From positions 1 to 35,124 of the forward strand of contig JAFWDD010000071.1 of assembly GCA_017534115.1 (NCBI GenBank): a DNA stretch of 35,124 bases. The letters are read 5' to 3'. Of this stretch, positions 1 through 25,060 are shown one piece after another; within the stretch, counting starts at the first letter, position 1; each line of letters begins with the position of its first letter. Under the pieces are notes generated by a model. That model did no database searches. It saw only the letters and a program-made list of their open reading frames with translations, and was not told the origin of the DNA. The translations under genes and the position numbers were made by a program. This DNA comes from Bacillota bacterium (GTDB lineage Bacteria > Bacillota > Clostridia > Lachnospirales > Anaerotignaceae).

Positions 1-6
1 TATAAT
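1..6 (+). promoter_or_regulatory. Possible -10 box of the SLH-protein promoter
   Basis: The window opens with TATAAT, 56 bases before the start codon of the SLH protein. The matching -35 box would lie outside the window, so this is only a suggestion. Confidence 0.3.
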
Positions 7-62
7 TGAAAACAACCGAAGTTATTTTTTGAAGTTATTTTTTAAGAGAGGAGATTATAATT

Positions 63-1982
63 ATGAGGCAAAGGATAAAAATCATAATAAGCTTACTGAC
101 AACAGTGGCTCTTGTTGCAGTTTTGCTTCCTGCTTCGGCAATGGCCAACACAGAAGAAGGCTATATATATGACGGGTTAGGGCATAGTGACACAGAAAAA
201 GGCGCAACATGGAATTATGATTATACAAACAGCAGCGATAATAACAGTAATTTAACTTATGAACAGATTTATACATTAACTGTTGATATAAACGGAGGAA
301 AACCAGGACCCAACTGGCAGGAATCCATTCAAATTCCAGCCGGATTTCCCTTTATAGTTACAGACCCGTCGTCAGATAGCGAAAACTTTTCGTATCCTCC
401 TGAAGGACTGGAGTTTTTAGGTGTTGAAGTCGACGGTATTAAATATGAACAAGGGGATGCGGTTCAGATAAACGGTGACACCATAATCAAACAGCTTTGG
501 GGAACTTTTATTACCATAGACAAGGTTAGTGTATCATTTACCGTACCTGTACACGGTGATCTTATTTGGGATGTAGACGAAAACGAATATATTGTACCCG
601 AGAACGGACACTATAGTATAGCCGCAAGAAGTTTTTATTTTAATAATGGAACACCCTTAGAAGATAACAGTACTTTTGAGGAAGGTTATGATTATACTCT
701 GCGTGTGTTACTTGAAGCCGATACAGGATATATATTCAAAGGCGGTGTAAAGGATACAGAAGGCGCAGAAGCTCCTGCTGTTGAAGACAGGGTTAAATAC
801 TATATGAACGGACACGATGTCACGGAGAATATAGTTGCACCTTATTTAAGAAAATATGTCGCAGCGGAATATACATTTATAGTACCGTATGTTATTAAAT
901 TAGATACAAACGGCGGAAAAGTTTCAGTTGAAGACATTAAAGTGTGCAAAGGAGACAGCATCGGAAAACTTCCGAAACCTGTTCGCCCAGGATACAGATT
1001 TGACGGATGGTTTACCGAGATCGAAGAAGGTGATGAGGTCACATCAGAAACAAAATTTAATGAAAGCACAACAATTTATGCTCACTGGACTAAAATTAAT
1101 TCATCCGGTGGTGGAAGTTCGGGAACTGTAAGCTATGTGCTTAAATTTGAAACTAACGGCGGCAATGAAGTGAAATCTATTACCGATAAAGCCGGTACAG
1201 TTATTAATCTTTCTGATTATACACCAACTAAAAACGAAGCCGTATTCGAAGGCTGGTATTCGGATGAACAGCTGACTTCAGAAGTTACATCCGTTACATT
1301 GAACAAAAATACGACCGTTTATGCCAAATGGTCCGACAGCATTGAATCTGTGCCTGCACCCGACAACAATAATTCCTCCGGAAATAACAATAATTCCTCC
1401 AAATTTAAAGATGTTGATCCGGGCAAATGGTATGCTGATGAAATCGATTTTGCTGTAAGCAATAACCTTATGACGGGTATTTCCGAAAATGAATTCGGTC
1501 CGGAATTATCTGTTACAAGAGGCATGATGATAACTACCCTTTACCGTATGGAAGGCGAACCTGCGGTTGAAGGAGCAGTTGAATTTAATGATGTTACGGA
1601 AAACACATGGTACACAAATGCAATCATTTGGGCAAGCAAGAACGGTATTGCTTCCGGATATACAGATGGTTCATTTAAACCCGGCCAGACTGTCTCACAT
1701 CAGGAATTGGCGCAGTTTATTTATAAATATGCTGAATTTAAGGGTTTAGACCTTACGGCAAAAGGCAAAATTAACATTTTTACAGATAAAGACGATATTG
1801 GCTCCTGGGCCGTTAACGCAGTTGAATGGGCAGTAGGAGCAGGCATTATAAATGGAATGGGAAACGGTACAATTGCTCCTGACGCTATATCCACAAGAGC
1901 TCAATTAGCTTCAATTCTCATGCGTTTGAATGGTCTTATGCCGTCAGCGGGAAAAGAGTCTGCAGAAACAGTATCTGAATAG
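63..1982 (+). CDS. Secreted S-layer-homology protein with InlB-type repeats
   Basis: 639-residue surface protein. A basic, hydrophobic signal peptide (about residues 1-28, cleavage likely after AMA) is followed by an unrecognised region to about 275. Two Listeria-Bacteroides (InlB B-repeat / Flg_new) repeats follow at about 276-343 and 357-424, each with the pattern DTNGG or ETNGG...GW(F/Y)...TT(I/V)YA(H/K)W. After an Asn/Ser linker come three SLH domains at about 446-498, 507-561 and 571-624. SLH triplets normally hold proteins to pyruvylated secondary cell-wall polymer, so the protein is probably displayed on the cell surface through its C-terminus, with the repeats as spacers or ligand binders. 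The start is set by an AGAGGAG site ten bases upstream. It is followed by its own terminator. Its ligand cannot be read from sequence. Confidence 0.9.
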   Translation: MRQRIKIIISLLTTVALVAVLLPASAMANTEEGYIYDGLGHSDTEKGATWNYDYTNSSDNNSNLTYEQIYTLTVDINGGKPGPNWQESIQIPAGFPFIVTDPSSDSENFSYPPEGLEFLGVEVDGIKYEQGDAVQINGDTIIKQLWGTFITIDKVSVSFTVPVHGDLIWDVDENEYIVPENGHYSIAARSFYFNNGTPLEDNSTFEEGYDYTLRVLLEADTGYIFKGGVKDTEGAEAPAVEDRVKYYMNGHDVTENIVAPYLRKYVAAEYTFIVPYVIKLDTNGGKVSVEDIKVCKGDSIGKLPKPVRPGYRFDGWFTEIEEGDEVTSETKFNESTTIYAHWTKINSSGGGSSGTVSYVLKFETNGGNEVKSITDKAGTVINLSDYTPTKNEAVFEGWYSDEQLTSEVTSVTLNKNTTVYAKWSDSIESVPAPDNNNSSGNNNNSSKFKDVDPGKWYADEIDFAVSNNLMTGISENEFGPELSVTRGMMITTLYRMEGEPAVEGAVEFNDVTENTWYTNAIIWASKNGIASGYTDGSFKPGQTVSHQELAQFIYKYAEFKGLDLTAKGKINIFTDKDDIGSWAVNAVEWAVGAGIINGMGNGTIAPDAISTRAQLASILMRLNGLMPSAGKESAETVSE

Positions 1983-2868: not shown

Positions 2869-3093
2869 ATGGGAAAAGATAAACCTATTCCGATAATACT
2901 TTTGATTTTTGCCGTAGTTCTTTTCGGAGCTATGTGTGCCGTAGTCGGTTATAATTACGCTTATCTTGATTATGCAGGCAGACATATGGGATTCAGCGCT
3001 CCGCCCAGTGTTGCATTTTTGTACGCGATTCCTTTTATTGCGGCAATATTGGTGATGCTCATTCTTGCCAAAAAGCTTTCTGATAAAGGTTAA
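2869..3093 (+). CDS. Small two-helix membrane protein, unknown
   Basis: 74-residue protein with two hydrophobic segments (about 8-28 and 46-68) joined by a short Tyr/Ala/Gly-rich loop, ending in a basic tail (AKKLSDKG). I do not recognise the family. An in-frame ATG lies 18 bases upstream but sits just before the AAGGAGGAG site, so the start is placed at MGKDKPIP. Position behind the CBS-pair gene suggests a membrane partner for that sensor, which is inference only. A weak TTCG-capped hairpin at about 3119-3140 near the convergent yunB stop may end the transcript. Confidence 0.7.
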   Translation: MGKDKPIPIILLIFAVVLFGAMCAVVGYNYAYLDYAGRHMGFSAPPSVAFLYAIPFIAAILVMLILAKKLSDKG

Positions 3094-3135
3094 TAGTTAC
3101 AATAACAGGGTTGAAACACAAAGATTTCGATCCTT

Positions 3136-3753
3136 TTATTTTTGGTCAGCATTAAAATAGGCATCTGGAACGCTGCCTTTTATTACGGAATCCACAATAA
3201 GGATTTCCTTTTGAAACATTACGGATTGTTCCTTAAAAGGCATTACTATTTTTGATTCTATCTCCACGTCAAAATATATTTTGTAATTCACCTGATTTAT
3301 TCCCGCTGATATTACCTGTGATTTTGTATTTATGTTTACCGCTCCGGCAGGCTTTACGTATATATTCAGATTCGGTCCCATATTGGAAAGCATATCTATT
3401 CCTGTAAGCATACCTATGGGGATTTCTGTTTTTAATCTGGATTTTTCCTGCATATAATCAGATATATACCTGCTTATTTTCGAAGAAAGATTGTTTATGA
3501 GAAGCATATCTGCAGAATAGGTATTTTCGGAATTATATATGAAAAAATCCGCTGCTTCCAAATTCATTTCCGATATGCTTGATGCAATAGCTTCATTTAT
3601 GGCCTCATTTGCCCGTTCTTTGGCCTCTATGGAAGAAATCTCGATAATTGTTCGTGAGATTTTTCCGTCGCAGAGAACCAAGAGAAAAACCGCTAAAAAT
3701 ATGAAAATTATCGCATATTTAAAAAACCGAGGTTTTATACATTTGATTTTCAT
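3136..3753 (-). CDS. yunB: Sporulation protein YunB
   Basis: 205-residue protein with one N-terminal membrane helix (about 10-28) and a large outside domain. The family signature is clear: IPIGMLTGID (111-120), GPNLNIYVKPAG (126-137), SAGINQVNY (149-157) and a near-terminal VIKGSVPDAY (190-199). YunB is a mother-cell (sigma-E in Bacillus) sporulation protein whose loss lowers spore formation; the biochemical role is unknown. The frame stays open 55 codons further upstream, but that part is AT-rich intergenic sequence, and the internal ATG with a weak TAAGGT site starts a normal signal-anchor. It is divergent from the penicillin-binding protein gene. Confidence 0.88.
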   Translation of the reverse strand: MKIKCIKPRFFKYAIIFIFLAVFLLVLCDGKISRTIIEISSIEAKERANEAINEAIASSISEMNLEAADFFIYNSENTYSADMLLINNLSSKISRYISDYMQEKSRLKTEIPIGMLTGIDMLSNMGPNLNIYVKPAGAVNINTKSQVISAGINQVNYKIYFDVEIESKIVMPFKEQSVMFQKEILIVDSVIKGSVPDAYFNADQK

Positions 3754-3916: not shown

Positions 3917-6646
3917 ATGAACTATTCTAAAATACCTGATAACGATAAGTATCAGAAGAAAATAAAACGTAAAAGAACTAAAAACAGAGTAGGAGTAATT
4001 ATATTGAGAGTTATTATAATCGGAATAATCGTAGCGATTTTCTCTGTTTTGGGCGGAGCCATAGGCGCGTATATGGGAATTATAGGAAATGCTCCGGATA
4101 TTAATACCATAGACGTTGTGCCCAAAAACTATACTTCATTTGTTTATGATAAATGGGGAAACGAAATAGATTCCTTCCATGGAACAGAAAACAGGGAATA
4201 TGCTACAATCGATGAAATTCCTGACATTTTGCAGAAAGCCGTTGTTGCTATCGAGGATGAAAGATTCTATGACCACAACGGAGTTGATGTTAAAGGTATG
4301 TTCAGAGCTCTTTTTGAAAACCTGAAAAGCGGAGAGTTCTCACAGGGCGCAAGTACAATAACTCAGCAGCTCATCAAAAACGAGGTTCTTACAAACGAGA
4401 AAAAGCTTGAACGTAAGATTCAGGAGCAGTATTTAGCTGTTAATCTTGAAAAGAATCTTACCAAAAGCTTAGGATCAAAAGAAGCGGCAAAGAGCTATAT
4501 ACTCGAGCTTTATCTCAATACAATAGCTTTAAACCACGGACTTAACGGAGTTAAAACAGCGGCTGAATTCTATTATGGAAAAGAATTGTCAGAGCTTACA
4601 TTGGCGGAATGCGCGTCCATCGCGGGAATAACCCAGAACCCCGCCAAATATTCGCCTGTCAGTCATCCTGAGGAAAACATAAAAAGACAGAGACGTGTTC
4701 TCGATAAAATGAGAGAACTTAACTTTATAACAGAAGAGCAGTACCAGGAAGCTCTTAATGATGATTATCTTTCCAGAATCGTTGGTAAGAAAAACGATGG
4801 GGAAGACAGAGCGATCCACAGCTATTTTGTCGACCAGGTTTTCTTTGATGTGGCAGATGACCTTATGGAACAGAAAAACATGACAAAACAGCAGGCATAT
4901 AATCTTATATACAGCGGCGGACTTCAGATATATTCAACACAGGATATGTGGATGCAGAATATAGTAGATGAGTCATACAGAAATGATTCTCTTTTCCCGC
5001 CGAGAGGAAATTACCTTAATGCCACATACACCATTTCCATAATGGACAACGAAACGGAAGAACAGACCCATATTACCAGACAGCAGGCTGTAAACTCATG
5101 GGATGAAGCGGAAGCCTTCAAGCAGTCGGTAATAAACGAGGTCGTTAATGATTCAAATACTCTTGTTGCCGACAAACTGGATGTAAACCAGGCTCTTCAG
5201 TCCGCAATGGTTATTATTGATTACAGAACAGGCGCCGTAAGAGCTTTAATCGGCGGCAGAGGCGCTAAAAACGGCGACCTTGTATTTAACAGAGCTACAC
5301 AGGCTCTCAGACAGATGGGTTCCTGCTTCAAAGTCCTTGCTGCATATGCTCCCGGAATCGATTTGGGAATATATTATCCCGGAAGTGTAATTGTAGACGA
5401 ACCCTTAACCGTCGACGGCCATCAGTTCCATAACTGGTGGGGAAACAGTTACAGAGGTGCATCCACAGTCAGAGTCGGTATAAGAGACTCAATGAATATC
5501 CTTGCCGTAAAAGCTCTTATGAGAGTAGGTTATGACCAGTCGTTTGAGTATATGAAGAAATTCGGCTTTACAAGCCTTGTTGATTCAGAAGTAACACCGG
5601 ATGGAAGAATAGTCAGCGATAAAGTTCCCAGCCTTGCGCTCGGCGGTATAACCTACGGTGTAAGCGTACTTGAGCTTACGGCGGCATACGGAACAATCGC
5701 AAATGGCGGTTTATATAATAAACCCATAACATATACGAAGGTTCTTGACCATGACGGAAATGTAATCCTTGAAAATAAAGTGGAACCTACAAGAGTTCTT
5801 AAAGAAACATCCGCATATCTTCTTACGGATATGATGAAGGATGTAATCACAAGCGGTACCGGACGTCTGGCAAGATTCAAAAGCATTAAAATGCCTATTG
5901 CAGGAAAAACAGGTACAACAACCGATGACAAAGACCTTGCATTCGCAGGATACACTCCTTATTATGTGGCCGGAATATGGCTTGGATATGATGACCCTCA
6001 GGTAATGAAATATGATAAGAGTTATCATCTCCTTCTCTGGAGTGATATAATGGAAAAAATTCACGCAAATCTGGAGTATAAGGAGTTTGAAAGACCGGAA
6101 GGCATTACAACTCTTTCCCTTTGCGGTATTTCCGGACTTACTCCTACAAGCTTGTGCGGCAGAGATTATTTCGGAAACAGAATGTCCGGAGATTTATGTG
6201 ATGAAAACTTTGTTACAGAATCAGGCACATGTAATCTGCACAAGGAATACAGAGTATGTATGGCAACGGGAATGCTTGCAAATGAATATTGTGCAGCCTC
6301 AAATATAGTACTTGCAGTTGATTCCAGCGGCAGAGTCGTGAACCAGTCTTCTTCAGGCGTTCAGTTTAACCTTGGAAGTGTTTGTACTGTGCATAATGCG
6401 TCAAATCGCGGTTCCGCGGTTGTTATTGACCAGAATCCAACAGATGTAGTTTTGGATGAAAACGGAAATCCTATAACACCGGAACCCGGCGAAACTGATA
6501 CAAACACAAATACCAATACAGATACACGCACTGATACAAATACAAATACTGAAACAAATACAAACGAATCTGATCATCAGGATCTGTCTGAATATGGATT
6601 TGCATGGGATGAGCAAGAGGGAAGATATGTAGAAATACAAAACTAA
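3917..6646 (+). CDS. Class A penicillin-binding protein (PBP1a type)
   Basis: 909-residue bifunctional peptidoglycan synthase. A basic cytoplasmic tail and one membrane helix (about 26-52) precede the GT51 glycosyltransferase domain, with EDERFYDHNGVD from residue 113 and GASTITQQLIKN at 144-155. The transpeptidase domain carries SCFK (nucleophile S469), SMN (525-527) and KTGTT (664-668). It polymerises lipid II glycan and cross-links stems outside the membrane. The extension after about 730 is unusual: seven cysteines (736, 747, 761, 772, 781, 792, 823) and then an Asn/Thr/Asp repeat tail. Start is fixed by AAGGAGAGG. A strong terminator follows, so the gene is probably monocistronic. Confidence 0.95.
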   Translation: MNYSKIPDNDKYQKKIKRKRTKNRVGVIILRVIIIGIIVAIFSVLGGAIGAYMGIIGNAPDINTIDVVPKNYTSFVYDKWGNEIDSFHGTENREYATIDEIPDILQKAVVAIEDERFYDHNGVDVKGMFRALFENLKSGEFSQGASTITQQLIKNEVLTNEKKLERKIQEQYLAVNLEKNLTKSLGSKEAAKSYILELYLNTIALNHGLNGVKTAAEFYYGKELSELTLAECASIAGITQNPAKYSPVSHPEENIKRQRRVLDKMRELNFITEEQYQEALNDDYLSRIVGKKNDGEDRAIHSYFVDQVFFDVADDLMEQKNMTKQQAYNLIYSGGLQIYSTQDMWMQNIVDESYRNDSLFPPRGNYLNATYTISIMDNETEEQTHITRQQAVNSWDEAEAFKQSVINEVVNDSNTLVADKLDVNQALQSAMVIIDYRTGAVRALIGGRGAKNGDLVFNRATQALRQMGSCFKVLAAYAPGIDLGIYYPGSVIVDEPLTVDGHQFHNWWGNSYRGASTVRVGIRDSMNILAVKALMRVGYDQSFEYMKKFGFTSLVDSEVTPDGRIVSDKVPSLALGGITYGVSVLELTAAYGTIANGGLYNKPITYTKVLDHDGNVILENKVEPTRVLKETSAYLLTDMMKDVITSGTGRLARFKSIKMPIAGKTGTTTDDKDLAFAGYTPYYVAGIWLGYDDPQVMKYDKSYHLLLWSDIMEKIHANLEYKEFERPEGITTLSLCGISGLTPTSLCGRDYFGNRMSGDLCDENFVTESGTCNLHKEYRVCMATGMLANEYCAASNIVLAVDSSGRVVNQSSSGVQFNLGSVCTVHNASNRGSAVVIDQNPTDVVLDENGNPITPEPGETDTNTNTNTDTRTDTNTNTETNTNESDHQDLSEYGFAWDEQEGRYVEIQN
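6497..6565 (+). repeat. Low-complexity Thr/Asn/Asp tract in the PBP tail
   Basis: Degenerate 6-base repeats close to ACAAAT or ACAGAT encode alternating Thr with Asn, Asp, Glu or Arg at residues 861-883 of the penicillin-binding protein. It looks like a flexible wall-spanning spacer and could vary in length between strains by replication slippage. Confidence 0.75.
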
Positions 6647-6658
6647 ATAAGGTACAAG

Positions 6659-6689
6659 CGGCACGGTTCTTTTGAACTGTGCCGTTTTT
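6659..6689 (+). terminator. Intrinsic terminator of the PBP gene
   Basis: CGGCACGGTTC and GAACTGTGCCG form an 11-bp stem (one G-U pair) with a TTTT loop, followed by five T. Confidence 0.9.
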
Positions 6690-6702
6690 ATGAATAATCC
6701 AG

Positions 6703-6734
6703 AAAAAAAGCACCTTCGTTTCAGAAGGTGTTTT
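6703..6734 (-). terminator. Bidirectional terminator ending the folB-mltG-trmR-trhP operon
   Basis: CACCTTC and GAAGGTG pair around a 6-base loop. On the minus strand the hairpin is followed by seven T, on the plus strand by four T, so it mainly ends the leftward operon and backs up the PBP terminator. Confidence 0.8.
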
Positions 6735-6748
6735 GTTATCATAATAAT

Positions 6749-7996
6749 CTAATTCTTATCGGAAACTTTCCTAAGAATATCCATCTCGTGTACAGGCCTC
6801 GGAAATTCCATTTCCAATATCTCGTGAGGGTGAGGAGCTGAGGAAACCTCTTCGCCAATCTGATTTATGAGTTTTGTAACAGTCATTGTGAAAACCTCTC
6901 CTTTTGCCGGAAGAACCTCAATTTCGTCTCCTACACAGAATTTATTTTTCTGCATTATAACTGCTCGTCCTGTTTCCGGATTGTAATCCTTGTGGACTAT
7001 GGCGATAAAATCATAATCCCGCTTATATGAACTGTTTTCATAAATCTGGCCTTCACTGTCGGGATTCCCGAAATAAAAGCCGGTGGAATATATCCTGTGG
7101 CTCACTTTTTCTGTTTCGGCATAGTATTTGCCAATGTTTCTCCTGTAAAGCTCAGGATCCTCATAATAATCATCAATTGCCTGTCTGTAAGCCTTTACAA
7201 GAGCCGCAACATAATTATGAGTTTTCATACGGCCTTCTATTTTAAAGCTGGAAATTCCGGCTTCTATGAGCTCAGGAATATATCCGATGAGATTCATATC
7301 CTTTGAATTGAATATGAATGTGCCTCTGTCGTTTTCCTCGATGGGAAGGTAAGTATCAGGACGGGTTTCTTCCACAAGATGATACTTCCATCTGCATGGC
7401 TGTGCGCAGTCACCCTGATTGGAATCTCTTTGGGTAAGGTAATTGCTCAACAGACATCTTCCTGAATACGAAATGCACATAGCTCCGTGAATAAACGCTT
7501 CAATTTCCATATCCTCGGGGATTTTTGAACGGATTTCGCGAATTTCATCCAGAGAAAGCTCTCTTGCCACAACTATTCGTCTGGCGCCTAAATTGTACCA
7601 GAAAATTGCGCTTTGATAGTTTGTGTTATTTGCCTGAGTGGAAACATGAATTTCAGTGTCAGGAGCGACTTCTTTTGCCAGCATAAAAACTCCCGGGTCT
7701 GAGATTATAAAAGCGTCCGCTCCAATTTCCTCAAGAGTTTTAAGGTATTCCTTCATAGGCTCAAGGTCTTTATTGTGCGCAAATATATTTGCTGTTACAT
7801 AAACCTTAACTCCGTGTTCATGGGCAAATCTTATACCTTCTTCCATATCCGGAATATCAAAATTTTTAGCCTTCGCTCTCAGTCCGAAGCTCTTTCCTCC
7901 TATATATACAGCGTCCGCTCCGTAGGCAACAGCTATTTTCAAACGCTCTAAATCGCCTGCCGGAGCAAGAAGCTCAACCTTTTTTCTGTTTTCCAT
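6749..7996 (-). CDS. trhP: U32-family tRNA hydroxylation protein (TrhP-type)
   Basis: 415-residue U32 protein. The family signature EAFIHGAMCISYSGRCLLS is complete at about 166-184, followed by GDCAQPCRW, giving four conserved cysteines. U32 proteins were long called peptidases; members beside the YrrM methyltransferase (Bacillus YrrN/YrrO, E. coli TrhP) perform prephenate-dependent hydroxylation of tRNA U34 to ho5U. Here it directly follows trmR, which methylates that product, so TrhP is the best reading; the related RlhA 23S rRNA role is less likely. Bacillus has two TrhP proteins in this spot, here there is one. An ATGA overlap with trmR would give a start at 8005, but AGAGGA sits right against that ATG, so the ATG nine bases later is preferred. 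Confidence 0.85.
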   Translation of the reverse strand: MENRKKVELLAPAGDLERLKIAVAYGADAVYIGGKSFGLRAKAKNFDIPDMEEGIRFAHEHGVKVYVTANIFAHNKDLEPMKEYLKTLEEIGADAFIISDPGVFMLAKEVAPDTEIHVSTQANNTNYQSAIFWYNLGARRIVVARELSLDEIREIRSKIPEDMEIEAFIHGAMCISYSGRCLLSNYLTQRDSNQGDCAQPCRWKYHLVEETRPDTYLPIEENDRGTFIFNSKDMNLIGYIPELIEAGISSFKIEGRMKTHNYVAALVKAYRQAIDDYYEDPELYRRNIGKYYAETEKVSHRIYSTGFYFGNPDSEGQIYENSSYKRDYDFIAIVHKDYNPETGRAVIMQKNKFCVGDEIEVLPAKGEVFTMTVTKLINQIGEEVSSAPHPHEILEMEFPRPVHEMDILRKVSDKN

Positions 7997-22146: not shown

Positions 22147-22175
22147 TTTAAATATATACGAAATGCTGATATAAT
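22147..22175 (+). promoter_or_regulatory. Promoter of the zinc-ribbon/PP2C/Nudix cassette
   Basis: TTTAAA, 17 bases, then TGATATAAT, an extended -10 box. The -10 is inside a perfect palindrome listed separately. It lies between tsaD and the zinc-ribbon gene, so the cassette can be expressed apart from tsaD. Confidence 0.6.
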
Positions 22176-22184
22176 GATTATATC
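22168..22184. promoter_or_regulatory. Perfect palindrome over the cassette -10 box (possible operator)
   Basis: GATATAAT, a central G, ATTATATC: a perfect 8-bp inverted repeat covering the -10 box and the probable start point. This is a common place for a repressor site, but AT-rich palindromes also arise by chance. Confidence 0.4.
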
Positions 22185-22212
22185 GACAATATTTACGGTT
22201 AGGAGGATTAAA

Positions 22213-22752
22213 ATGATAAACTGTCCCGAATGCGGAGCCGAAATCGGTGATGAAATTACTGTTTGTCCCGAATGCGGAGTAGGTGAAAAATACTACTTTA
22301 CTTTGAAATTAATGCCTGATGCAATGCGCAGAACATTCTTCATGATAGAAGATGATGAAGGTATAGAAATATTCAAAACACTTTCAAAAGAAAATATCAG
22401 AGTTTTCCTCGGAGATTACGGTACTATTGCCGCTGTCCCCGTAAAAAAGGGTTTTTCAATTATGCCCAAATATATTATTAAACTTGATGATGAGGATATT
22501 GTTTTAAAACAAACCATGAAATCCTATTCAACCACTTGGGACGAGATTTCCTCCATATCTGAGGAAAGGCATGGATATTTGTATAAATTCATGGATAAAA
22601 AAGGTAATATAATGGCTACAATGATCATGAAGACAGGAGCCTTCAGAATAGACATTGAAACATATAACACCGACTTCCGTCTTATGTGCATAATGGCGAT
22701 TATAGCCGAAGGTATGCTTAAGATCCGTATGTCCAGACCTGCCGGTATTTAA
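22213..22752 (+). CDS. Zinc-ribbon protein, first gene of the unknown cassette
   Basis: 179 residues. A short zinc ribbon is formed by C4-x2-C7 and C18-x2-C21 (CPECG twice). The rest, about 25-179, is a mixed domain with alternating strands (IIKLDDEDIVLKQ, TTWDEISSIS, DKKGNIMATMIMK) and a final helix; the strand-then-helix order suggests a PH/GRAM-like fold, which is inference. I do not recognise a named family. AGGAGG precedes the chosen ATG; an upstream in-frame ATG lies in the promoter. The PP2C gene follows within 35 bases. Confidence 0.78.
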   Translation: MINCPECGAEIGDEITVCPECGVGEKYYFTLKLMPDAMRRTFFMIEDDEGIEIFKTLSKENIRVFLGDYGTIAAVPVKKGFSIMPKYIIKLDDEDIVLKQTMKSYSTTWDEISSISEERHGYLYKFMDKKGNIMATMIMKTGAFRIDIETYNTDFRLMCIMAIIAEGMLKIRMSRPAGI

Positions 22753-22785
22753 TTTTATTAGTTATATGGAAATGAGGTTTTTAAA

Positions 22786-23625
22786 ATCATCAAATATGTA
22801 ATTGATACCGAAAAAATATCCGCAAGCGGAAGCAACATAAATGAAGATGCGGTTGTTGTAAGCGAAAAGTTTATTGCTGTAATTGACGGCGCTACCGGTT
22901 TGGGCAGAAATAATAATATGGAAGCAGGCTCAGATGCATACTGGCTTGCCAGCAGGACTGCCGAAATATTGGAAAAAGATCTTGGCAATAACAAAAAATC
23001 ATTGCCTGATATATTATATTCCGCTATGAGTATTTTAAAAAGCGAATGGGTAGGCAATGAAACAGAAATGCCCTCATGCGGAATATCCATATTTAGAATT
23101 AATGAAGATAAAATAGAATATTTCGGTTTGGGGGACTGCTATGCGTCCGCTGTGTTTAATAATGGTGAATTTTTAAAATGGATCGAGAAAGATTTGACCA
23201 TCCTTGACGAAAAAGCTCTTTCCGAAATGTGTTATTTATCCAAAACAAAAGGGATTTCCATGGTTGATGCCAGAAAGGAAATATCTGATATCCTTGCAAA
23301 GCACAGAAACATGAGAAACAGAGAAGGCGGGTACTGGTGTTTAGACCCTTCAAGTACAGGCATTTCTCATGGAAGACAAGCTGTTTTTTCCGCAGAGGAC
23401 TGCAAGTCTCTTTTTTTATGTTCTGATGGCTTTTATCAGCTTGTGGGATTCAATTATTTCAATGATTTGCGTGAATTACACCAGGCTGCAGAAAAGAAAA
23501 GTCTGGAATGTTTAATGGACACATTGTTTTCTCTTCAAGAGCAGGATTATGAAATGACCAAGCTGCCAAGGTTTAAATTCCGGGATGATTCCAGTGCGAT
23601 TATAGGAAAAATACGGAGGATTTGA
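22786..23625 (+). CDS. PP2C-family phosphatase with an apparent non-AUG start
   Basis: About 279 residues. All PPM-family metal motifs are visible: NED (19-21), IDGATG (33-38), GDC (116-118), CSDG (212-215) and RDDSSA (266-271). PPM enzymes remove phosphate from Ser/Thr using two Mn or Mg ions. A start at the first ordinary codon of this frame (TTG at 22900) would remove the first two motifs, so translation must begin earlier. The frame is open from 22762 but has no ATG, GTG or TTG before 22900. TGAGG lies eight bases before ATC at 22786, taken here as the start; an ATC follows and an ATT is at 22801. A lost A near 22786 (which would give MRFLKIIKY) is the alternative. It ends four bases before the Nudix-like gene. 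Confidence 0.75.
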   Translation: MIKYVIDTEKISASGSNINEDAVVVSEKFIAVIDGATGLGRNNNMEAGSDAYWLASRTAEILEKDLGNNKKSLPDILYSAMSILKSEWVGNETEMPSCGISIFRINEDKIEYFGLGDCYASAVFNNGEFLKWIEKDLTILDEKALSEMCYLSKTKGISMVDARKEISDILAKHRNMRNREGGYWCLDPSSTGISHGRQAVFSAEDCKSLFLCSDGFYQLVGFNYFNDLRELHQAAEKKSLECLMDTLFSLQEQDYEMTKLPRFKFRDDSSAIIGKIRRI

Positions 23626-23629
23626 TAGG

Positions 23630-25060
23630 ATGAAAAAAGGTGATATGCCAATTAGCGTTCCCATGAAAAATTTCAGATCTTATTGGAGATACTGGTTAAA
23701 AATGTATACAAAAAGTGTACTTAACAATCTCAGTATGATTTCTACCTTACTTACATTTTTCGGAGTAATAAATCTGGTGCATCCTGTTATAAGCAGTAAA
23801 TACTATGTAGGTGTTTTAAAAGGAGCAATAGATTTTGCTCCTTTTGTTGTTGCCGTCATTTTATGGATCCTGGATTATAACCGCAATCTGGAAGACACAT
23901 ATTCCACAAAGAAAAACGTTGACGACGCATATGATGAAGTTATATATTCCAACTCTGCGTCACCTGATAATAATGACTGGGTAAGATGTACTCTTAAAAT
24001 AAACGCAAATACAACGGAAACCGTATATTATAACAGCAAAATTAATGACTGGCTCATGTCAGAAGAGCCCATAAGCATCGAAAGAGACAGAAATTACGAA
24101 AAAAAACTTCGGAAAAAGATAAACTCAAAATGGGAATCATTATATATGCCGTTTCTGAAGCAAAACTACCGTGATGCCATGTATCTTGGCAAACTGTTTT
24201 ATAACGAGCGGAAGTTCGGTATATCTCAGGAGCTTAATCCGGGCGATAAAAAAGTTAGGATTCACAAAACCTGTTACTATGATTCTTACCTGACCAATAT
24301 AATACCTGGCAGCAGGCTTTTAAGAAATAACGATTTTAAAGTTGTGGCGGACGCTAGCGAAGATGATGTAATGCCCTATATTTTCGATGATATATTAAAC
24401 GAGAAACATCTGCAGAAATATGAACATTTCATATCCGCCAACGAACCCGGCGTCACTACTGTGTGTATTCAGGAAAACGGATACATACAGCTTTGGACTC
24501 AGAATATAAAATCCATGTCAAACCAGGGTCAGATAGTGGCAACCGGAAGTGGTTCTGCCGACTGGACCGATTGCAGGAATAATTTTAAAAAACCTGACGG
24601 TTTCAGAGACACCATTATTTTTGGTATGGAGCGTGAAGCTTATGAGGAATCTAACGGAAATCATGATGTAAGCCGGGAAACATTTATGAAAGATATGGAA
24701 ACAAGAATTACCGGCTATTTCCGATGGCTGAAAAAGGCCGGCAAAGCTGAGTTTGTCGGGTTATCCCGAATTAATGAAAGCTATGAATTGTCTCCCGATA
24801 CTTCTGAAGTTTTCCAAAACAAAAGACCTGTTTTAATAAATGCTCAGACAATAGACCTCCTCAAAAAGAGCATTGAAAAATATATTAAAAAAACAGACGA
24901 ATATACATATGAAACATCAAATGTTTCTGTTTCCTGTACTATGGCCTTACTGGCTTTACACAGAGAGTGCATAAGGTATTGTGAATCCTGTAATAAAAAG
25001 GGTGAGCATAACTGCGAAAAATGCTCTGAAAATCCCTATTACGTTCTGTTTCATGAATAA
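23630..25060 (+). CDS. Membrane-anchored Nudix-like protein with C-terminal CxxC pair
   Basis: 476 residues. Two N-terminal helices (about 34-52 and 66-82) place the rest in the cytoplasm. A charged region follows (about 85-270). From about 272 a Nudix-like domain can be read: TVCIQENGYIQLWTQN, VATGSGSADW, then EREAYEES (334-341), which fits the REUxEE core of the Nudix box. The upstream box Gly and Glu are not clear, so the match is distant. TGYFRWLKKAGKAEFVGLSR (361-380) continues the pattern of some bacterial Nudix proteins. The end holds CESC and CEKC (451-454, 462-465), a likely zinc site. Nudix enzymes cut nucleoside-diphosphate compounds; the substrate is unknown. GGAGG precedes the start, four bases after the PP2C stop. 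Confidence 0.7.
   Translation: MKKGDMPISVPMKNFRSYWRYWLKMYTKSVLNNLSMISTLLTFFGVINLVHPVISSKYYVGVLKGAIDFAPFVVAVILWILDYNRNLEDTYSTKKNVDDAYDEVIYSNSASPDNNDWVRCTLKINANTTETVYYNSKINDWLMSEEPISIERDRNYEKKLRKKINSKWESLYMPFLKQNYRDAMYLGKLFYNERKFGISQELNPGDKKVRIHKTCYYDSYLTNIIPGSRLLRNNDFKVVADASEDDVMPYIFDDILNEKHLQKYEHFISANEPGVTTVCIQENGYIQLWTQNIKSMSNQGQIVATGSGSADWTDCRNNFKKPDGFRDTIIFGMEREAYEESNGNHDVSRETFMKDMETRITGYFRWLKKAGKAEFVGLSRINESYELSPDTSEVFQNKRPVLINAQTIDLLKKSIEKYIKKTDEYTYETSNVSVSCTMALLALHRECIRYCESCNKKGEHNCEKCSENPYYVLFHE

Follow-up and report, generated by a model that had tools for sequence, protein, structure and literature searches.

The window, that is, the whole stretch of 35,124 nucleotides that was analysed, comes from a genome of 1.86 Mb and carries three closely spaced genes, g1, g2 and g3. 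Their features, with the basis of each assignment in brackets, are as follows.

22147..22175, plus strand: promoter-like site 5′ of g1, TTTAAA-17-TATAAT with an extended -10 (consensus match 10/12)
22213..22752, plus strand: g1, 179-aa protein with an N-terminal zinc ribbon (two CPECG) and a C-terminal part (Pfam Zn_ribbon_3 at 8e-5, below the curated cut-off)
22786..23625, plus strand: g2, PP2C/PPM-type phosphatase of 279 aa with an apparent ATC start (PP2C_2 at 1.7e-4; metal motifs invariant)
23630..25060, plus strand: g3, 476-aa protein with two membrane helices and a predicted NUDT22-like Nudix part (AF2 model, Foldseek/VIA, 12-member alignment)
23732..23893, plus strand: two transmembrane helices of g3, residues 35-55 and 61-88 (model helices; hydropathy)
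23972..24409, plus strand: g3 residues 115-260, a domain that precedes the Nudix domain and matches the NUDT22 N-terminal domain (VIA alignment; Y216, D218, T222 and N223 invariant or near-invariant)
24437..24979, plus strand: predicted Nudix domain of g3, residues 270-450 (model and structural comparison)
24632..24649, plus strand: REAYEE, the Nudix-box core of g3 (R335, E336, E339 and E340 invariant in 12/12)
24980..25024, plus strand: C-terminal Cys cluster of g3, CxxC...CxxC (in the near relatives of the window and in L014; absent in L022, L024 and others)

The three reading frames, the gaps of 33 bases (g1-g2) and 4 bases (g2-g3), read directly from the sequence, and all the motifs named in an earlier sequence-only reading of this DNA were found to be present. 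The unit had also been credited with its own promoter. Of the promoter-like sites in the region, that at 22147-22175 is the best; as the region holds 10 such sites against 13.3 in shuffles, with no excess in density, it constitutes weak evidence. GC content and codon use of g1, g2 and g3 resemble those of the neighbouring genes, and the idea of a horizontal island was rejected.

g1 begins at ATG 22213, with AGGAGG at 22201-22206, and both CPECG motifs lie within residues 4-22. Comparison with Pfam, NCBIfam, PADLOC, plasmids, relatives and class genomes returned just zinc-ribbon or chance matches, and no full-length relative was seen among 98 relatives or 245 class genomes. Single-sequence fold prediction gave an unusable model (pLDDT 36). 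A LURP-one/tubby-like fold, suspected from the look of the sequence, was supported by no result. As judged from these searches, g1 is an orphan zinc-ribbon protein, restricted to the window among the loci surveyed.

The full set of PPM metal motifs read earlier in g2 (NED, DG, GD, SDG and DD) was confirmed as that of a complete PP2C. In seven aligned sequences E20, D21, D34, G35, D117, D214, G215, D267 and D268 are invariant, all the acidic residues of the motifs being retained, and two relatives exceed the Pfam cut-off. From the in-frame stop at 22759 up to a TTG at 22900, g2 offers no ATG, GTG or TTG; starting at 22900 would remove the NED motif, which sits 5′ of it. The gene is in frame from ATC 22786, eight bases past a GAGG, and its relatives begin at about that place. 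Since no usual start codon lies 5′ of NED, either a rare-codon start (ATC 22786) or an assembly error at this position has to be assumed. The only Hanks kinase found in the genome of the window adjoins its own, other PP2C on contig C43; g2 is a second PP2C of this genome. Its subfamily is uncommon in the phylum, with 13 of 299 genomes carrying it.

Members of this PP2C subfamily were also seen beside other partners. At L037 (4393-5956), L064 (5699-7659) and L065 (4005-5965) the phosphatase gene lies directly 3′ of a gene for a TPR-like protein with three C-terminal membrane helices, a partner that is 33% identical across distant hosts (the family of the window itself versus a distant one) and makes up a second pairing of the PP2C with a membrane protein. 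The subfamily is also paired with an ABC transporter, and at L042 and L043 (plasmids), L066 and L068 its members adjoin an anhydro-N-acetylmuramic acid kinase and other amino-sugar genes. On the actinobacterial plasmids L045, L047 and L049 the relatives lie a few bases 3′ of a GntR or sigma-factor-like HTH gene, several of these HTH genes being annotated, probably wrongly, as integrase. g1 is absent from L037, L064, L065 and the other PP2C-partner loci.

In g3 the two membrane helices, the EREAYEES core (residues 334-341) and the CxxC...CxxC ending (451-465) are all present as previously described. The first 35 residues have a net charge of +6, and two helices near the N-terminus are found in most family members. 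When the Nudix box, GX5EX7REUXEEXGU, is compared with the 12 aligned members, RExxEE is invariant in 12/12, the first G, the first E and the last G are not conserved, and there is no Pfam Nudix match. N192, Y216, T222, N223, N271, G274, Q291, S307-S309, D314, T358, F375 and G377 are also invariant. Searches of the 12 members against Pfam, NCBIfam and PADLOC gave no convincing match; phmmer and profile searches against PDB sequences gave nothing of weight (NUDT5 at E 2 only).

A single-sequence search for g3 in genome contigs retrieved nothing, and the relatives were found with a two-row and then a four-row family alignment. They occur in Clostridia, Bacilli, Erysipelotrichaceae, a Synergistaceae bin, a Paludibacter bin and Monoglobus; counting the genome of the window, the family is present in 4/398 genomes of the phylum and 2/349 of the order. 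At L023 (7459-8843) and L034 (6889-8222) the relatives are split into two reading frames, and these are probably decaying copies or assembly errors. Taken together with the model described below, g3 represents a rare, unnamed family of membrane proteins with a predicted NUDT22-like fold.

AlphaFold2 was run on the 12-row family alignment and gave a model with pLDDT 82 and pTM 0.82, in which a helical hairpin (residues 35-88; confidence about 50-68) is followed from about residue 92 by a mixed alpha/beta part (confidence about 90). Structure prediction of the Nudix-like part, proposed as a check in the sequence-only reading, thus yielded a Nudix fold. In the Foldseek search against the PDB the six best matches were all human NUDT22. 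With VIA-align 2, residues 115-447 of the model were matched to residues -5..286 of NUDT22 (Z 19.2, 264 residues, rmsd 3.6), and the NUDT22 matches ranged over Z 18.8-19.2, 259-273 residues and rmsd 3.5-3.9. The top structural rows are all Nudix proteins, and NUDT22 stands about 7 Z units ahead of any other protein in the VIA comparison. IPP isomerase type I and YfcD-like Nudix proteins share the Nudix fold with g3 at Z about 12; their matches begin only at g3 residues 166-193 and leave the first domain mostly uncovered. The predicted model has the NUDT22 architecture, an extra first domain followed by the Nudix domain. The Nudix assignment of g3, a guess when it was made, is supported by a confident model with the metal core intact, and the observation behind it was correct.

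At the level of sequence the link to NUDT22 is weak. hhalign of the g3 family with NUDT22 gave a probability of 1%, the HMM score was beaten by 21 of 5000 shuffles, and the outcome of global alignment depended on the gap cost, with z about 2 under one setting and none under another. MAFFT sets corresponding motifs against each other, and their order agrees (CYYDSYLTN/SYRDFLGTN, EPGV/PLGV, REAYEE/QEICDE, AGKAEF/AGRASAEF for g3/NUDT22); the NUDT22 query agrees with PDB 5lor/5lf9 over 303 residues. By sequence alone, kinship of g3 with NUDT22 is not proven. g3 is best described as NUDT22-like, not as a NUDT22.

The neighbourhoods of the g3 relatives were then compared. Of about 16 independent g3 loci, four (the window, L017, L022 and L024) have a PP2C of the g2 subfamily next to g3, in three different layouts (L018 is cut on one side). 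At L017 the PP2C, 42% identical to g2, lies upstream of g3 in the same order as in the window; at L024 it lies 11 bp downstream; at L022 it is divergent from g3 at 62 bp, and this PP2C matches a PP2C model built without L022 at E 1e-9 for 5000 sequences. Since the subfamily is found in only 13/299 genomes, the adjacency is very unlikely to be due to chance. About 12 of the 16 loci are without an adjoining PP2C, and on the g3 tree the PP2C-adjacent label is scattered, at least three changes being needed. In two Paenibacillus-type genomes, about 94% identical in this region, a clean 1.34-kb presence/absence of g3 (L024 7586-8926 vs L063 5195-5203) is seen before the same, retained PP2C. The pairing of g3 with the PP2C is not obligate.

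Co-occurrence elsewhere had been set in advance as one refutation test for the three-gene reading, and one half of the expected pattern was found: the PP2C-Nudix pair recurs at L017, L022 and L024, and the set of g1, g2 and g3 was seen at no other locus, g1 lying beside no other g3 found. The cassette exists as a tight unit in the genome of the window and is confined to it. Its make-up matches no described system that was found, as had been stated. A three-gene system as such is not supported, and neither is a defence role for it.

At L022 the next two genes encode a UDP-glucose/GDP-mannose dehydrogenase and a nucleotide-sugar epimerase/dehydratase; such a sugar-gene context of g3 was seen at this single locus. 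At L019 (9597-10406) a gene for a tyrosine-phosphatase-family protein with a likely signal peptide lies 3 bases after the g3 relative. At L025, in the Paludibacter bin, a RelA/SpoT-type synthetase (3005-3700), 510 bp upstream of the g3 relative, and a type II restriction-modification pair (6639-7994) flank it. The remaining neighbours are mostly housekeeping genes.

Starting from what was computed (both gene families, the membrane hairpin, the predicted NUDT22-like fold, the metal core, the PP2C link and the rarity), we infer a substrate class, a topology, roles for g1 and g2 and a joint action of the three genes. The reading we tentatively prefer, though it falls somewhat short of an even chance, is that g3 may be a membrane-tethered UDP-sugar-type pyrophosphohydrolase under some phosphatase control. 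Its Nudix part would be tethered to the membrane and face the cytoplasm, in the two-domain layout of NUDT22, with a first domain that would hold the UDP and a metal-binding Nudix domain after it. The enzyme would split a UDP-sugar-type nucleotide sugar at the membrane, the site at which such sugars are consumed in making wall, capsule or lipid-linked glycans, and would release UMP and sugar-1-phosphate. g2, probably on the same transcript, would likely control how far g3, or an enzyme linked to it, is phosphorylated, and g1 could be a lineage-specific zinc-ribbon partner. UDP-sugars as substrates are suggested by the fold of NUDT22, a UDP-glucose/UDP-galactose hydrolase; the place of use is suggested by the membrane hairpin and phosphorylation control by the PP2C, each step being conjectural. 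In the structure work of Carter and co-workers of 2018 the N-terminal domain of NUDT22 is said to bind the UDP part. The top rank of NUDT22 over the whole length, the agreement in motif order, the recurring PP2C neighbour, the sugar genes of L022 and the amino-sugar genes beside PP2C relatives are consistent with this reading; the non-significant sequence link to NUDT22, the single sugar-gene locus, the many g3 loci without PP2C, the PP2C without g3 at L063 and the lack of a counterpart of g1 count against it.

The same domain could act on another nucleotide (an alarmone, ADP-ribose, a dinucleotide polyphosphate or capped RNA), the likeness to NUDT22 being one of fold only. Function is not shown by a shared fold, the sequence similarity is not significant, Nudix substrates are widely varied, and the synthetase at L025 would suit an alarmone. 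Against this, the structural comparison ranks NUDT22 far ahead of Nudix enzymes for ADP-ribose, CoA and other substrates, and the alarmone context is seen at one locus; we regard this alternative as rather unlikely.

The sequence-only reading had suggested that the genes could belong to a signalling or stress/defence pathway with a nucleotide signal; a nucleotide-signal defence pathway is not supported. An effector function was also considered. The helices of g3 would open a pore in the membrane or perturb it when a Nudix sensor binds or splits an infection or stress nucleotide, under control of the PP2C; g3 would do Cap16-like work without being a Cap16. Membrane helices with a Nudix domain are the architecture of Cap16 (PMC10419184), and the sporadic presence of g3, its clean presence/absence beside the PP2C and the surroundings at L025 agree with such a role. 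In six g3-family genomes, that of the window included, no CD-NTase was found with PF18144 and no SMODS-associated Nudix (Sa_NUDIX, PF18167) up to E 1, the latter being absent among the 12 g3 proteins as well; CBASS membership was rejected on these searches. PADLOC models gave no match of weight (just PtuB at E 0.02), no g3 relative was seen in viral contigs and phages, L025 alone lies beside a type II restriction-modification pair, and housekeeping genes predominate among the other neighbours. A protein that merely senses would have no need of the invariant catalytic core; the conserved metal core makes an enzyme likelier than a pure sensor. Nothing found marks the g3-PP2C set as a defence system, and the effector function is unlikely.

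It is more doubtful still that the PP2C governs the membrane hairpin protein in a signalling module, the NUDT22-like domain sensing or destroying a UDP-sugar-type signal and the same PP2C serving exchangeable membrane outputs such as the TPR protein with three helices (G014, G688, G712). Least likely is a coincidence of separate pathways under one promoter, which would suit the absence of the PP2C from most g3 loci and of g3 from most PP2C genomes, the uniqueness of g1 to the window and the scattered label on the g3 tree, but not the same PP2C subfamily at four g3 loci in three arrangements.

The genes can be set beside known systems as follows. With PrpC-type phosphatases g2 shares the PPM metal motifs and the PP2C_2 model; it differs in belonging to a distinct subfamily and in having no kinase adjoining. 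With CBASS Cap16 g3 shares membrane helices plus a Nudix domain; unlike Cap16 it has no PF18167 match, and no CD-NTase (PF18144) in the genomes tested. The comparison also delimits a protein family that had no annotation and a PP2C subfamily whose partners can be put to the test. Human NUDT22 converts UDP-glucose to UMP and glucose-1-phosphate (PMC10101856) and has been described as an outlier within the human Nudix group (PMC5688067, PMC10101856). g3 shares with it the predicted fold over 264 residues, first domain included, the modified Nudix box and the motif order. Identity is 12%, the core reads RExxEE in g3 and QExxDE in NUDT22, and the two N-terminal membrane helices and the Cys-rich tail of the near relatives set g3 apart. 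With a bacterial membrane family of matching predicted two-domain fold, NUDT22 would gain distant relatives for comparison, and there would be a simple system for probing what the first domain of NUDT22-type proteins recognises.
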